64,000 bases of DNA from positions 1 through 64,000 of the forward strand of contig PJLO01000012.1 of NCBI GenBank assembly GCA_003010405.1, read 5' to 3'. Positions 2,952-39,549 of this stretch are shown here, piece after piece; position 1 is the first letter of the stretch; every line of letters begins with the position of its first letter. The DNA comes from Acidobacteriota bacterium (GTDB taxonomy: Bacteria; Acidobacteriota; Terriglobia; Terriglobales; Acidobacteriaceae). Under the pieces are notes generated by a model. The model saw nothing but the letters and a program-made list of their open reading frames with translations, was not told the DNA's origin and made no database searches. The position numbers and the translations under genes are program-made.

Positions 2952-4169
2952 TTAAAAGACCGAGCACACAATACATTTCAAATAGTACGTTTCAGGAACG
3001 TTCATAAGTACCGGATGATCTACCGACTGCATTCGTTTTTCGATAACGTGGAGATTACGGCGTGTGTCGAGCGCTGCACTGGATAGCATTGCCAGAAAGT
3101 CCTGTTCACTGACGTGAAATGAGCAGGAGCAGGTCACAAGCACTCCGCCATTGCGTACCATCTTTAGCGCGCGTAGGTTGAGTTCCTTGTAGCCGCGCAG
3201 AGCATCTTCGACACTCCTCTTTGATTTGGCAAATGCTGGCGGGTCGAGCACGATGGTTTCAAAACGCCGGTCGGCGTCCGCATACTGCCGCATTAACTCG
3301 AAGGCGTCAGCCTCTATAAACTCGATGGGCTTTTGCTCATTCAACGCGAGGTTTTGCTCGGCCACTGCGAGTGCCTCGGAGGAGATGTCGACCGCTGTAA
3401 CCTGCTCGCAGACGCGGTTCAGATGCAGTGAGAACCCGCCCTGATAAGTACAGATTTCCAGCGCCCTGCCTCGGGCATACCGCTCCGCAGCCGCATAATT
3501 TTCGCGCTGGTCGAGGAAGGCTCCTGTCTTTTGTCCGGCGTTGCCGTCGTAATGAAATGCCAGCCCGTTCATATGGAAGATGGTTGCAGTTTTCGGCTTC
3601 TTCAGCCGCGAATATGCCGCCTGATCGTCGCGTGCGTCCAACCCTTCGAGTTCCCGAATGCGCGGGTCCACTCTTTCCAGGATCGTTTCGGGTTTGAACG
3701 CGGCTCTCAGCTCTTGGATCAGGATCTCGCGCGCGAACGGGGTATCCATTGCCTGGGTCAGCACTTGAAAGCTGATTACGTCGTTATACTTGTCCACAAT
3801 CAGGCCGGGGACAATGTCGGCCTCGCTAAAAATCACGCGGAACGCATCCGAGTCGCGCACGACTTGCTGGCGATAGGCAATCGCCTGGCGAATACGGTAG
3901 CGGAGCAGTTCGGGATACTTTTCTGGTTCGACCGGATTCGGGGCAATCATTCGCAGCGCAATTTGCGAGCTGGAGCTGTACAGCGCGGAGCCGCAAGGTT
4001 TGCCGCGCTGGTCCTCCACGCGAACCAGCCCGCCGGGGGTGGCCTGATCGACCCGCTCAATGTCGGATTTGAAAATCCAGGGATGGCCACCGCGCAGGCG
4101 TGCCACCGCGTGCGCGTTCACAACTACGCGCGCAACCGCAGCCGATGATGTTTTCTTCTTAGCTTTCAT
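2952..4169 (-). CDS. rlmI: Class I rRNA large-subunit methyltransferase, RlmI-like (PUA plus Rossmann)
   Basis: A 405-residue SAM-dependent methyltransferase of the RlmI/YccW family, which makes 5-methylcytosine in 23S rRNA. The N-terminus (about 12-90) is a PUA-type domain (RLRGGHPWIFKSDIE). The central EEHD-like part contains GLIVDKYND. The Rossmann part shows FLDQREN, TYQGGFSLH (SAM loop), VTAVDIS, VLDPPAFAKSK and the TCSCSF motif carrying the catalytic cysteine. The ATG at 4167-4169 is the natural start. The neighbouring minus-strand gene at 4197 is only 27 nt upstream, so the two are probably co-transcribed. Family assignment is firm; the exact target base is by analogy. Confidence 0.9.
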   Translation of the reverse strand: MKAKKKTSSAAVARVVVNAHAVARLRGGHPWIFKSDIERVDQATPGGLVRVEDQRGKPCGSALYSSSSQIALRMIAPNPVEPEKYPELLRYRIRQAIAYRQQVVRDSDAFRVIFSEADIVPGLIVDKYNDVISFQVLTQAMDTPFAREILIQELRAAFKPETILERVDPRIRELEGLDARDDQAAYSRLKKPKTATIFHMNGLAFHYDGNAGQKTGAFLDQRENYAAAERYARGRALEICTYQGGFSLHLNRVCEQVTAVDISSEALAVAEQNLALNEQKPIEFIEADAFELMRQYADADRRFETIVLDPPAFAKSKRSVEDALRGYKELNLRALKMVRNGGVLVTCSCSFHVSEQDFLAMLSSAALDTRRNLHVIEKRMQSVDHPVLMNVPETYYLKCIVCSVF

Positions 4170-4196
4170 GCGGAGAAGTAGATCAAGTAGCCGTTC

Positions 4197-5228
4197 TTAC
4201 GCTTCGGGAAGCTGATGCCGGAGGTCTTCGAGTACCTCGGGCGGCAACTGGTCTTTGTATTTGTCATCGAGGTTCGCCTCGTCCACGAACAAGTTGCGAG
4301 CTTCACGCATCTCTTCGGCAAAGATGCTTTGACAGATTGCGTTCTTTTCGACGCGGCGCACTAGGGCCTCGCCCGTGATGGCATCATAGGCCTTCATAGT
4401 TGCGTTGCCTTTGTGGTTGATAAAGACCACAAAAGCGCCTTTTGAGCCCATCGAGGGAACAAACATCCATTCTCGTTCGGCTTGCTGCGCAACGCCCGTA
4501 GTATTGGCGGCAACGGTCTTTACGTTGTGCTCTGGCAAGTAGTAAAGCATGCGTCCGCACGAGTCGCAGTTCACTACCTCCCCGGCTCGGACGTTCGATA
4601 CAACCTGCGGACGTAGCATGAACTGGCAGGCCATGCAGCGATGTTCCATCACCTCGGCCATGGCAAAGCCGCGAGATTTCAGAATGCGGTCATACGTCAG
4701 GAGCAGAGTCTCATCAACGTCCTGGCGTAGTGTCGCTCTTCTTGCCTCGGCTTCGGCAACTGCAGCCCGGTCCGCATCTCCGGCCTTCTCAACCGCAGCC
4801 TTTTGGCGTTCCACTTCAGCAGATTCGATCTTGAGCGCCGCTTCGGCAGCAGCAAGTTGCGAGTGCAATGAATCGGCATTCAGCATGACTTCGAGAACTT
4901 TTTCTTCGTAGTTGCCGATCTCGCTTTCAGCATGCGCAATTTCGGAGAGCAGCGCCTTGTACTGTTCGTTGTTCTTTATGCTCGACGACTGGCCGCGGAA
5001 CTTATAGACCTTCTCGTTCAGGGCTTGGATTTCCCGCTCATACTCCCGTTTATCCGCCTCTCCTGCCTTGATAGCGGCGCGGACGTCATCCACGCGCTTG
5101 CGGACGGTAGCTAGCTGGGCATCAATGCGCTCAATGGTTTTCGGTATGGCCGCGAGTTGCGCTTTGAGGCGCACGAGTTCGAGGTCAATCGCCTGCAGTT
5201 CGACGAGCTTTTCAAGATCGGTCGGCAT
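4197..5228 (-). CDS. CdsZ-like coiled-coil protein with C4 zinc ribbon and extra C-terminal domain
   Basis: 343 residues. Residues 1-175 are a long antiparallel coiled coil (heptads rich in E, K, R and A). A C4 zinc ribbon follows with C198, C201, C221 and C224 (CMAC and CDSC). This is the layout of the CdsZ/HP0958 family (DUF164), proposed to contact RNA or stalled ribosomes; those proteins are about 240 residues. The remaining 110 or so residues here (from about 240) are an additional region containing VPSMGSKGAFVVFINHKGN and an acidic C-terminus that I do not recognise. The ATG at 5226-5228 starts the coiled coil directly. Probably transcribed with the downstream rlmI. Confidence 0.85.
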   Translation of the reverse strand: MPTDLEKLVELQAIDLELVRLKAQLAAIPKTIERIDAQLATVRKRVDDVRAAIKAGEADKREYEREIQALNEKVYKFRGQSSSIKNNEQYKALLSEIAHAESEIGNYEEKVLEVMLNADSLHSQLAAAEAALKIESAEVERQKAAVEKAGDADRAAVAEAEARRATLRQDVDETLLLTYDRILKSRGFAMAEVMEHRCMACQFMLRPQVVSNVRAGEVVNCDSCGRMLYYLPEHNVKTVAANTTGVAQQAEREWMFVPSMGSKGAFVVFINHKGNATMKAYDAITGEALVRRVEKNAICQSIFAEEMREARNLFVDEANLDDKYKDQLPPEVLEDLRHQLPEA

Positions 5229-36061: not shown

Positions 36062-36117
36062 GGGTGCAGGCTCCCACCTTAGACGCGCAAAAGCGGCGCG
36101 TCGAAGGTGGGGCACCC
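36062..36117. repeat. Palindromic repeat, family E copy 1, just upstream of mqnE
   Basis: GGGTGC..CCCACCTTAGACGCGC pairs with GCGCGTCGAAGGTGGGGCACCC, about 22 bp a side with small bulges. It starts 6 nt after the aldo/keto reductase stop. Confidence 0.85.
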
Positions 36118-36162
36118 GAAGATCCATCTGCGATGAGGGGGCGGTGCGATATCATACGAGAC

Positions 36163-37317
36163 ATGGCGGAAGTTCAGTTTCCCATCACGGTGCCACGCCA
36201 TTGCTTCCAAAGCGAGGATGCGCGGCTCAAGAGAATTTACGAGAAAGTGATTGCGCAAGAGCGTCTCGACCAAAGCGATGCTCTTGCCCTTTACCGCACC
36301 TCGGACATGCTGGCACTGGGCTGGCTGGCGAATCATGTGCGCGAGCGGATGCACGGCAATGTGGCCTACTTCAATGTGAATCGCCATATTAATTACACGA
36401 ACGTTTGTGTTGCGGGCTGCCGGTTGTGCGCGTTCGGACGCAAGAAGGGGGCCCCAGGCTCGTACACGATGAGCCTGGAGGAGGCCTTCAAGTCGGCTGC
36501 CTCCGGCTATACGGAAGCAGTAACGGAGTTCCACATCGTCGGCGGACTGAATCCGGATCTCCCGCTGCAGTATTACCTGGACCTGTTGAGCGGATTAAAG
36601 GAGCGTTTTCCGCACGTTCATTTGAAGGCTTTCACAATGGTGGAGATTGCGTTCTTCGCCAAGCTGAACAAGATGTCGGTTCGGGACGTGCTGCTGAAGC
36701 TGAAGGCTGCCGGACTGGATTCGATGCCGGGAGGCGGCGCGGAAATTTTTGCGAAGCACGTGCGGGCGAAAATCTGCGATAACAAAATCGATGGTGACGA
36801 GTGGCTGGGTGTGGCGCGCGAGGCGCACTCGCTTGGTATTCACTCGAACGCGACGATGCTCTATGGGCATATCGAGGGCGACGAGGACAGGGTCGATCAT
36901 TTGCTGAAGCTGCGCGCGCTGCAGGACGAGACCAAGGGGTTCCAGACCTTTATAGGGCTCTCGTTCCATCCGGAGCATACGGTTTTGCGGCACTTGCCTT
37001 GGACTACCGGGGTGCTAGATTTGAAACAGATCGCGGTCGCCAGGCTGGTGCTGGATAACTTTCCGCACGTGAAAGCCTACTGGCAGATGCTGACTCCGAA
37101 GATCGCACAAATCGCTTTGCGCTTTGGTGCCGATGACATTGACGGCACGGTGGTGGAAGAAAAGATCTACCACGATGCGGGGGCGACGACTCCGCAGGGA
37201 TTGACCCGTCAGGACCTGATCCGGTTGATCGAGGCCGCGGGCCGAATTCCGGTGGAGCGCGACACGCTATACCGTCCGGTGACGCGCAGCGGGAGTTCAG
37301 TTACAGTGTGTGTGTGA
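36163..37317 (+). CDS. mqnE: Aminofutalosine synthase, radical SAM
   Basis: 384 residues. First-stage enzyme of the futalosine menaquinone pathway: adds the adenosyl group to 3-enolpyruvyl-benzoate. The radical SAM cluster is C82, C86, C89 (CVAGCRLC), with FGRKKGAPGSYTMS after it; the barrel contains EFHIVGGLNPDLP and GLDSMPGGGAEIF, and IGLSFHPEHT follows. The frame is open to 36064, but the upstream part is a palindromic repeat, so I chose ATG 36163 (MAEVQFPITV). Ribosome site weak. Closely related MqnC is smaller and lacks the PGGGAEIF context. Confidence 0.92.
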   Translation: MAEVQFPITVPRHCFQSEDARLKRIYEKVIAQERLDQSDALALYRTSDMLALGWLANHVRERMHGNVAYFNVNRHINYTNVCVAGCRLCAFGRKKGAPGSYTMSLEEAFKSAASGYTEAVTEFHIVGGLNPDLPLQYYLDLLSGLKERFPHVHLKAFTMVEIAFFAKLNKMSVRDVLLKLKAAGLDSMPGGGAEIFAKHVRAKICDNKIDGDEWLGVAREAHSLGIHSNATMLYGHIEGDEDRVDHLLKLRALQDETKGFQTFIGLSFHPEHTVLRHLPWTTGVLDLKQIAVARLVLDNFPHVKAYWQMLTPKIAQIALRFGADDIDGTVVEEKIYHDAGATTPQGLTRQDLIRLIEAAGRIPVERDTLYRPVTRSGSSVTVCV

Positions 37318-37362: not shown

Positions 37363-37503
37363 GGTGAAGAGGGCTTCTGCCCGAGTGATTTTTGCACTTT
37401 AGGACGTAGAAAAAGATTCTTTTTGCTTGCCTATTTTTAAGATAGTGATACATTCCTGTCTGGACCGTACCTGTCGAAGGCATCGATCTTACGAGGCTCG
37501 CAG

Positions 37504-38559
37504 ATGAACGTCCATTTTACTTACAAGCTAGAGAAGTCTCTCCAAGTCGAGCAGTACCTCCAATCCCAAATTGAAAAACTAGGACCGCGGCTGCAGGTGT
37601 TCAACCCAGATATGGTTTCATTGCGCGGGTTGATCGAAGCGGCGCCTAAGTCTGGTTATACAGTGGCGCTGAATCTGCACTTGCCTGCGGGACAGATGAC
37701 TGCGCGAGCGAGCGCAGATTCTCTCCATGCTGCCGTCAGGATTGTCTTTGACGACCTGACCGAGCAATTAGGGAAACACAAGGAACATTTACGAAACCAG
37801 TATCGGTACCCCAGGATGCGCGGCGTGGAGCGGCAGAGAGTTGAGCCGCAGGTTGCGTTCGAGGATACCGTTGCGGCAGTGAAGCTGGAAAAGATTTCGA
37901 GTACAGACGTAACCAGCTTCGTGAATGCAAACCTGGAGCGGTTGCGCCGATACGTGGAGCGCGAGCTTCGCTTCCGGTGCGACAGCGGACAGCGGCGGTT
38001 GGAAGAAATCAGCGTAGAGGAGGTAATCGACGAAGCAATCGCGAATGCGTTGGATGAGCGTCGCCCTCGTCCTGAAAAGATAGCGCTGGAGCCGTGGCTT
38101 TATCGGCTGTCTCGCTCGGCGATGGACAGGCTGGGTAATCAGCTTGAGTCGGGGAAACGCGCCGTACGGCTGAACGAAGCGGACAGTCGTACGGTGGTTA
38201 GCGATGCGGACGGGGAAGAGATGATGCAGTTCTATCATCCCGACGAGAAACTAACGAATGAGAGCCTGATTGCGGATCGGCGTGGCAGCACGCCGGAGGA
38301 AGATGCATCGCAGGATGAGCTGATCACGATGGTGGAGCGTGCGTTGCGAGGTTCGACACCACAACAACGCGAGGCGTTTCTGCTGTTCGCGCTGGAGGGA
38401 TTCGGGCTGGCGGAAATTGCCGCGATCACGGAACGTCCGGTGGAGCAGGTGAAGAGCGACATCCATCTGGCGCGTGAACGTTTGCGGCATGCTCTGATTG
38501 CCGCTGGAAACAAACGGCAAAAACATCCGATAGCTAACCATCAGGATCGTACTGCGTAG
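37504..38559 (+). CDS. HPF/RaiA-type ribosome hibernation domain fused to a sigma-70 family factor
   Basis: 351 residues. Residues 1-97 have the beta-alpha-beta layout of ribosome hibernation factors (FTYKLEKSLQVEQYLQSQ, YTVALNLHLPAGQMTARAS, LHAAVRIVFDDLTEQLGKH). After a basic linker, residues 135-212 look like sigma region 2 (VNANLERLRRYVERELRF, VEEVIDEAIANALDE, LEPWLYRLSRSAMDRLGNQ). Residues 272-330 are sigma region 4 with a helix-turn-helix (GSTPQQREAFLLFALEGF, LAEIAAITERPVEQVKSDI). The GAGG site 7 nt before the ATG is good, and a sigma-70-like promoter (TTGCTT, 17 bp, TGATAC) lies about 70 nt upstream. There is no frameshift at the joints. The role is unknown: it could couple ribosome state to transcription. 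Confidence 0.82.
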   Translation: MNVHFTYKLEKSLQVEQYLQSQIEKLGPRLQVFNPDMVSLRGLIEAAPKSGYTVALNLHLPAGQMTARASADSLHAAVRIVFDDLTEQLGKHKEHLRNQYRYPRMRGVERQRVEPQVAFEDTVAAVKLEKISSTDVTSFVNANLERLRRYVERELRFRCDSGQRRLEEISVEEVIDEAIANALDERRPRPEKIALEPWLYRLSRSAMDRLGNQLESGKRAVRLNEADSRTVVSDADGEEMMQFYHPDEKLTNESLIADRRGSTPEEDASQDELITMVERALRGSTPQQREAFLLFALEGFGLAEIAAITERPVEQVKSDIHLARERLRHALIAAGNKRQKHPIANHQDRTA

Positions 38560-38754: not shown

Positions 38755-39549
38755 CTAAAGCAGACGTGGCATTAGTTCGTTGGCGCGTGAGCCGAGTCTG
38801 CTACGAAGGTGCTCGATGGCTTTGCCGTGAATCTGCGAGACACGGGACTCGGTTTTGCCGATGGATTTGGCTATTCGCGCCATGGTCCAGTCTTTGAAGT
38901 AGTAGAGGATCAGGACGTTTGCTTCGTCATGCTGGAGCTGGGCGATGTGCTTGCGAAGCTCGCGGCGAGACTCATGCTGGTGACAGATGGAGTCGGGCCG
39001 CTTCTCCGGATCGTCGGCTACGCTATCCTGCACCGCGAGGCAATCGCTGTCTTCCTGAGGTTCAAATTCCACTTCCTGGCGGCCCTGCACGGCCTGAGCA
39101 AATTCATAAAACGTGTTCAGATCCATGCCCATGGAATCGGCCACTTCGTCGCTGTCGGGCGCGCGCCCTAGTTTGGATTCGAGGGCGCGGGTTGCGTTAT
39201 CGAGCTTTTGCTGGCGTGTGCGGAAGTATCGCGAAGCCCAGTCCAGTTCGCGGAGACTATCGAAGATCGCTCCGGTGATGCGGATGCGAGCGTACTGACG
39301 AAAGGGCAGATTGCGGTACGGGCCATACCGCCTGGCCGCGTCGATAAGGCCGAGAGAGCCGGCCTGGATGAGATCGTCAAGCTGCACGGAGGCGGGAAGA
39401 CGGCGAAGGATGGAACGCGCGACCTGTTTCACGTCGTTCATGTGTTCGAGAACAAGTTGTTCCTGCTCGTCTTCCGGCAGGGTTTCTGGAGATGGCGGCG
39501 GGAAGAATGGGAATGGGATTGACTCTGCAAAACATTGAGTGCTGGTCAC
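38755..39549 (-). CDS. FliA/WhiG-type (sigma-28 group) RNA polymerase sigma factor
   Basis: 264 residues. Region 2 ARSILRRLPASVQLDDLIQA and GLIDAARRYGPYRNLPFRQYA; region 3 DNATRALESKLGRAPDSDEV; region 4 VLILYYFKDWTMARIAKSIGKTESRVSQIHGKAI (quoted in part as KDWTMARIAKSIGKTESRVS). This is the group that drives flagellar, motility or developmental genes. No flagellar gene is in the window. It starts with GTG at 39549 behind AAAGG. It faces the HPF-sigma fusion tail to tail. A sigma-28-like promoter may lie upstream (39694-39722). Confidence 0.92.
   Translation of the reverse strand: MTSTQCFAESIPFPFFPPPSPETLPEDEQEQLVLEHMNDVKQVARSILRRLPASVQLDDLIQAGSLGLIDAARRYGPYRNLPFRQYARIRITGAIFDSLRELDWASRYFRTRQQKLDNATRALESKLGRAPDSDEVADSMGMDLNTFYEFAQAVQGRQEVEFEPQEDSDCLAVQDSVADDPEKRPDSICHQHESRRELRKHIAQLQHDEANVLILYYFKDWTMARIAKSIGKTESRVSQIHGKAIEHLRSRLGSRANELMPRLL

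Follow-up and report, generated by a model that had tools for sequence, protein, structure and literature searches.

Ribosome hibernation and RNA polymerase control have been studied as separate responses. Proteins of the HPF/RaiA kind include the long HPFs, which carry a C-terminal dimerisation domain, and ECF sigma factors include groups, such as ECF41 and ECF56, in which a regulatory domain is fused to sigma2–sigma4. The usual neighbour of a gene for the hibernation factor Balon is raiA, and alternative sigma70 genes are sometimes close by (PMC10901736); baeRF genes are associated with HPF (PMC6514570). Fused HPF modules can constitute new hibernation families, as in archaeal HibA, an HPF–CBS fusion that binds the ribosome with both halves (PMC13324472). 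PhyR of the Alphaproteobacteria contains a sigma-like domain with an ECF fold and degenerate promoter and core contacts, which titrates an anti-sigma factor (PMC8103513).

Here we describe a gene for a 351-amino-acid protein in which an HPF/RaiA domain is joined to a probable sigma mimic. It lies in a window of 64,000 nt from an Acidobacteriota bacterium (Acidobacteriaceae; GCA_003010405.1, contig PJLO01000012.1, positions 1–64,000, forward strand). The N-terminal fold, profile and basic residues are those of HPF/RaiA, including long HPF, but a sigma-derived domain stands where long HPF has its dimerisation domain, and the canonical HPF gene of this genome adjoins rpoN, apart from the fusion. 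Its module is sigma-like and bacterial, whereas that of HibA is CBS and archaeal. The protein shares sigma2–sigma4 plus an extra domain with the ECF41 and ECF56 types, yet differs from them in its N-terminal HPF and its degenerate promoter-contact residues. As in PhyR, the sigma half has an ECF fold with degenerate promoter contacts; unlike PhyR, it is joined to an HPF, no NepR was seen and no receiver domain appears among its Pfam matches up to E 1, so the protein is not a PhyR. Like Balon genes beside raiA, the gene has a neighbour in most relatives whose product is Balon-like by fold, but the RaiA-type partner here carries a sigma-like domain, and no such partner is described in the papers that we found. 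The original prediction, made from the DNA letters, knew of no characterised protein of this design; our literature search likewise found no description of an HPF–sigma fusion, and the bare architecture may be listed somewhere.

Table 1. Positions of the fusion gene, its domains, signals and neighbours, and of the E. coli homologue (window coordinates unless a locus is named)
Feature	Position	Strand	Basis or remark
HPF–sigma-like fusion gene	37504..38559	+	open frame, ATG start, 351 aa, no frameshift
-10-like promoter motif GTGATACATT	37445-37454	+	counterpart of GGGTGTA[CG]AAT in most relatives
Shine–Dalgarno-like GAGG	37493-37496	+	sequence; kept at equivalent position in relatives
HPF/RaiA (S30AE) domain, residues 1-100	37504..37803	+	profile and fold
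Flexible linker, residues 101-131	37804..37896	+	pLDDT <50 over 103-121
Sigma region 2-like helical domain, residues 132-216	37897..38151	+	TIGR02937, AlphaFold2 helices
F-Y-[QH]-P-D-E signature, residues 243-248, sigma2–sigma4 linker	38230..38247	+	conservation in family
Sigma region 4-like helix-turn-helix domain, residues 264-336	38293..38511	+	Sigma70_r4_2, fold
Radical SAM gene with CofH/MqnC C-terminal domain	36064..37317	+	upstream neighbour; Pfam Radical_SAM, CofH_C
FliA/WhiG-type sigma factor gene	38755..39549	-	faces fusion; TIGR02479 E 5.6e-60
orf11 homologue	L182:7001-8146 (E. coli plasmid NZ_CP061755.1); L183:7001-8146		between hdeD-GI and trx-GI

The gene had been predicted to have its own promoter and ribosome site and to be free of frameshifts. 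The frame is open throughout, the GAGG precedes it, and a -10-like motif of this kind recurs in all 78 aligned upstream regions; orthologues of the same family share it about 45–65 nt 5' of the start codon. The leader is short (window 37455–37503; upstream regions L044–L123), and in most lineages a hairpin that overlaps the Shine–Dalgarno GAGG can be folded. These hairpins form classes that vary in sequence by lineage, with weak covariation; RNAalifold on the joint alignment returned no RNA structure common to all leaders, and Rfam gave no match above gathering scores near the fusion gene. The product of the upstream radical SAM gene is, in our reading, MqnE-like, and a homologue occurs at 35 of the 78 fusion loci. 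The facing FliA/WhiG-type gene, to which the original prediction had also drawn attention, is real but incidental and lies outside the system: it stands beside the fusion at only 2 of 78 loci, those of the two nearest relatives (L044 and L045), and we rejected a functional pairing for this reason.

The domain assignments of the original prediction (residues 1–97 as HPF/RaiA; 135–212 and 272–330 as sigma regions 2 and 4) were borne out by profiles and by predicted structure, with boundaries that were essentially right. Residues 9–96 match Pfam S30AE (E 3.4e-8; 34.5 bits against a cut-off of 23.7), residues 285–327 match Sigma70_r4_2 (E 2.4e-10; 40.3 against 25.7) and residues 138–331 match the NCBIfam sigma70-ECF model TIGR02937 (E 3e-13; 49.7 against 42.9). 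Pfam Sigma70_r2 finds no match in the window protein; it weakly matches a distant homologue (E 0.0011). Region 4 also scores 28.8 bits with PhyR_sigma-like, for which the cut-off is 27. An AlphaFold2 model built from 26 homologues (mean pLDDT 80, pTM 0.37) is confident for the individual domains and not for their mutual arrangement. In the model, residues 1–100 follow the HPF-like E-H-E-E-E-H order, a disordered linker (103–121) leads to a helical domain at 133–216 with pLDDT near 90, and a second, mostly disordered linker leads to a helical domain at 264–340.

Both predicted halves resemble solved structures. The HPF half (residues 1–99) aligns with 4hei (Z 15.5, rmsd 1.4; VIA-align), with the RaiA chain from the Balon complex (8rd8_D, Z 15.0) and with HPF on the 100S ribosome (6h4n, Z 14.8), and Foldseek matches it to 2rql (E 3.1e-6). 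Residues 270–336 align with the sigma region 4 structure 5fgm (Z 9.3, VIA-align), and the predicted fold of residues 128–335 with whole ECF sigma factors (CnrH, Z 9.2); by profile and fold the C-terminal part is thus sigma2–sigma4 and not the ribosome-dimerisation domain of long HPF. Residues K25, H92 and K93 of the HPF half are invariant in 26 sequences and align with K25 and the QLTKHKDKL helix of E. coli HPF; we take these basic residues to be of the rRNA-contacting type.

The fusion is widespread. Full-length collinear homologues occur in 28 of 41 near-relative genomes from two families; a sample of 396 genomes from the whole phylum contained them in about 23, which belong to ten families. 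In total such homologues span no fewer than 11 acidobacterial families and extend to proteobacterial plasmids. A pattern scan detected it in at least 115 species-level genomes, and the 80 matches listed are all acidobacterial; the scan used a one-family alignment, so that spread in other phyla lies beyond its reach. Our survey outside the Acidobacteriota covered plasmids and E. coli genomes.

This conservation in many genomes shows that the fusion is real and neither chance nor an assembly artefact. An assembly error, which the original prediction had named as a possible refutation, is excluded by the collinear orthologues in independent Acidobacteriota assemblies and on complete plasmids, and by a single continuous frame under purifying selection; we found nothing in support of an error or a chance juxtaposition, and give either a negligible probability. 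All parts of the protein are under purifying selection: dN/dS of the window gene against its two nearest relatives is 0.11–0.14, with synonymous sites nearly saturated, and the two relatives compared with each other give 0.26. Sigma2 is the most constrained domain (0.036–0.058 in comparisons with the window gene). In fusion-less genomes we looked for split orthologues among stand-alone sigma proteins; the best matches were ordinary ECF sigma factors, which are not split orthologues because their TVKSR-type recognition helices are intact. The signature between the sigma domains, matched as [QHE]-P-D-[DE], is present in 87 of 100 non-redundant fusion members and, with a slightly narrower pattern, in 0 of 9 ECF proteins; its P-D is invariant from the Acidobacteriota through to E. 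coli Orf11 (see below). As members share the linker and the F-Y-[QH]-P-D-E motif, their sequences point to a single origin of the fusion.

To compare the sigma half with ordinary sigma factors, we aligned 122 fusion sequences (100 after removal of redundancy at 90%) with eight ECF proteins from the same genome and with E. coli RpoE, to which contact residues were referred by alignment. The positions scored are presumed, after RpoE, to contact DNA or core. In RpoE numbering, Q51 (8 of 9 ECFs versus 0 of 100 fusions), R149 (6 of 9 versus 0) and R173 (5 of 9 versus 0) are absent from the fusions, and N80 (7 of 9 versus 4 of 100), T169 (5 of 9 versus 3), S172 (8 of 9 versus 11) and R/K176 (9 of 9 versus 25) are depleted. 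Residues of the fold type are kept, with W73 in 98, R143 in 96 and E158 in 95 of 100 fusions, as are the acidic residues of region 2.2 (E/D48 in 91, E/D52 in 94). The DNA-facing helices of the fusions are 2–3 net positive charges poorer: the 2.4 helix has a net charge of +3.3 in ECFs and +0.1 in fusions, and the recognition helix +3.4 in ECFs and +1.1 in fusions. The 2.2 helix is more acidic in fusions than in ECFs. Because the promoter-reading residues are nearly all lost while the fold, the acidic 2.2 surface and the F-Y-[QH]-P-D-E motif are kept, this half has probably become a docking module of sigma origin, comparable to the sigma mimic of PhyR, and is not a sigma factor that chooses promoters. 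The original prediction had proposed that the protein links translation status directly to promoter choice; a link between ribosome and transcription is plausible, but a promoter-specific sigma role is doubtful, given that contact residues are replaced across 100 members.

At 64 of 78 loci, the next gene downstream on the same strand, usually after a gap of 8–75 nt, encodes a protein of about 390 amino acids that belongs to Pfam baeRF_family10 (E 4e-21 to 7e-16). Its predicted fold (pLDDT 81) has as its best PDB matches mycobacterial Balon on the 70S ribosome (8v9l_z; Foldseek E 4.6e-23, TM 0.75/0.78), followed by release factors of archaea and eukaryotes and by Balon of Psychrobacter; a PDB search with the sequence of this partner gave no match where the fold search did. 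The Balon-like proteins, when aligned, show no GGQ motif. In the family of the window genome, 11 genomes have both fusion and baeRF10, 4 the fusion only, none baeRF10 only and 10 neither (Fisher p 5e-4). Of all the evidence for a use of the HPF half in hibernation, this conserved Balon operon is the strongest. Neither the window genome nor either of its two nearest relatives has the Balon gene next to the fusion. The unlinked baeRF10 copy of the window genome (G000:C13:1150–2307; region L137:878–2307) is preceded by an apparent decayed sigma4 remnant of a second HPF–sigma gene (tblastn E 0.001), as if an ancestral pair had been split. The same genome also encodes a long HPF, in the order rpoN-hpf-rapZ, and a short HPF, so the fusion is not the housekeeping HPF. 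The gene for a short HPF homologue (112 amino acids; L139:3452–3790, on contig G000:C77) adjoins a gene read by eye as Rnk/GreA-GreB-like (4016–4501), which may be a second case of a ribosome factor paired with one for RNA polymerase.

Deep acidobacterial lineages have other neighbours. One genome has the order ftsH, HPF–sigma, a gene for a 95-amino-acid HxxxCxxC anti-sigma-like protein and a Balon-like baeRF10 gene (L146:3212–7628), an order that looks like a chromosomal forerunner of the stress islands described below for plasmids; the 95-amino-acid protein is below the cut-off of Pfam zf-HC2 and was seen beside this one homologue only. A STAS gene lies directly downstream of the fusion at L147:4393–4734 (Pfam STAS E 1.2e-20), and the downstream gene at L154:4596–4997 is alike in sequence. 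Regulated sigma factors are accompanied by genes of such kinds as STAS and HxxxCxxC, but the cases seen here are few; there is no anti-sigma gene next to the fusion in the window. Other lineages have aminotransferase or LysM/SLT neighbours, and gene context is not universal. In the sister family (L140 and L141) a gene whose product has 288–297 amino acids comes before the fusion; the L140 copy (L140:3894–4757) has no Pfam match, and at this locus a LysM/SLT transglycosylase gene comes after the fusion.

The architecture also occurs on plasmids of Methylorubrum extorquens AM1, Roseomonas, Paracoccus and Agrobacterium (tblastn), where, whenever annotation is shown, it lies within stress islands of the type hsp20-marR-ftsH-clp-[fusion]-hdeD. 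A closer query added plasmids of Shinella, Sphingomonas, Burkholderia and Cupriavidus (tblastn), and in Paraburkholderia two copies adjoin hsp20, one of them with groEL and dnaK as well. The S30AE scores of these plasmid relatives are near the cut-off; an N-terminal profile of the plasmid set matches acidobacterial and canonical HPFs together with E 2.4e-18 and canonical HPFs alone with E 8e-6 (probability 83.6). The searches also reached a 'hypothetical protein' between hdeD-GI and trx-GI in E. coli, Klebsiella, Enterobacter and Aeromonas, which by its position is orf11 of the tLST heat-resistance island. Orf11 aligns collinearly with the acidobacterial alignment over 297 columns (hhalign probability 99.6, E 5e-24) and has the FEFYQPDD motif in common with the acidobacterial fusions; by sequence comparison, E. 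coli Orf11 is a divergent member of the HPF–sigma family, with an HPF half too divergent for a Pfam match. Among 5,426 complete E. coli genomes, 144 carry a nearly identical copy that spans most of the gene. Unlike most acidobacterial fusions, Orf11 has no Balon gene beside it.

Adjacency to Balon and kinship with orf11, neither noted in the original prediction, suggest that the fusion may tie ribosome shutdown to transcription during stress. We propose as its most likely role, at roughly even odds (a probability of about 0.5), that it acts in hibernation and that its sigma-like tail is a dock for RNA polymerase or for an anti-sigma factor, a scheme in which we infer ribosome binding, the partner and the direction of the signal. 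Under stress, the HPF half would bind the 30S decoding region of idle ribosomes, as its fold and conserved basic residues suggest, and a Balon-type factor would often act on the same ribosomes, as the conserved operon suggests. The tethered sigma-like half could then dock either of two partners: the core of RNA polymerase, by way of the acidic region-2.2 face that it has kept, or an anti-sigma factor, as with PhyR. Hibernation and transcription would be adjusted together through the fusion. Besides the two folds, the conserved fusion, the Balon operon and the lost promoter contacts, this docking model is supported by the sigma-regulator neighbours, by the plasmid relatives in heat and proteostasis islands and by the fact that selection is strongest on sigma2. 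Several observations count against it: the fusion lacks an adjacent Balon gene in the window genome and in the two relatives nearest to it, the anti-sigma-like neighbour is confined to one genome and falls below the Pfam cut-off, and E. coli MG1655 lacZ::LHR was no less resistant to heat or chlorine after single deletion of orf11, the divergent homologue (PMC8407380).

The sigma fold could instead have been recruited only as a ribosome-side appendage, in the place of long HPF's C-terminal dimerisation domain, and be unconnected with transcription. The company of Balon, the loss of DNA-contact residues and the separate rpoN-linked long HPF, available for ordinary dimerisation, would all fit, as would the precedent of HibA, both halves of which bind the ribosome (PMC13324472). 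An appendage of this kind leaves unexplained, however, why the acidic region-2.2 face is kept, which in true ECF factors meets the polymerase clamp or anti-sigma factors, and why STAS and anti-sigma-like genes are neighbours in deep lineages; we regard it as rather unlikely. Slightly less probable again is the model of the original prediction, a true ECF sigma factor that senses through its HPF half: idle ribosomes would hold it by this half, and on release it would direct RNA polymerase to stress promoters. Such a factor would account for the sigma2–sigma4 architecture above the TIGR02937 cut-off, for K171 and S172 in the recognition helix of the window copy and for the fact that a few distant homologues have an anti-sigma-like or a STAS gene as neighbour, but the promoter contacts are missing family-wide, the positive charge of the 2.4 and recognition helices is reduced, and the upstream motif conserved in relatives is -10-like, with no ECF-like -35.

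Returning to the docking model, we suggest more tentatively, and at somewhat less than even odds, that these proteins constitute a new bacterial class of hibernation factor, in which a sigma mimic would physically connect idle ribosomes and Balon with the transcription machinery, so that translation and transcription fall dormant or revive together, with Orf11 of the mobile heat-resistance island as a transferable version. Orf11, a tLST gene product of unexplained function, gains a testable identity as an HPF–sigma relative, and a tractable homologue of the fusion is present in M. extorquens AM1. If the docking model is true, a single conserved protein made of an HPF and a sigma-derived domain, and encoded with Balon, would provide a direct physical route between ribosome hibernation and the control of RNA polymerase.
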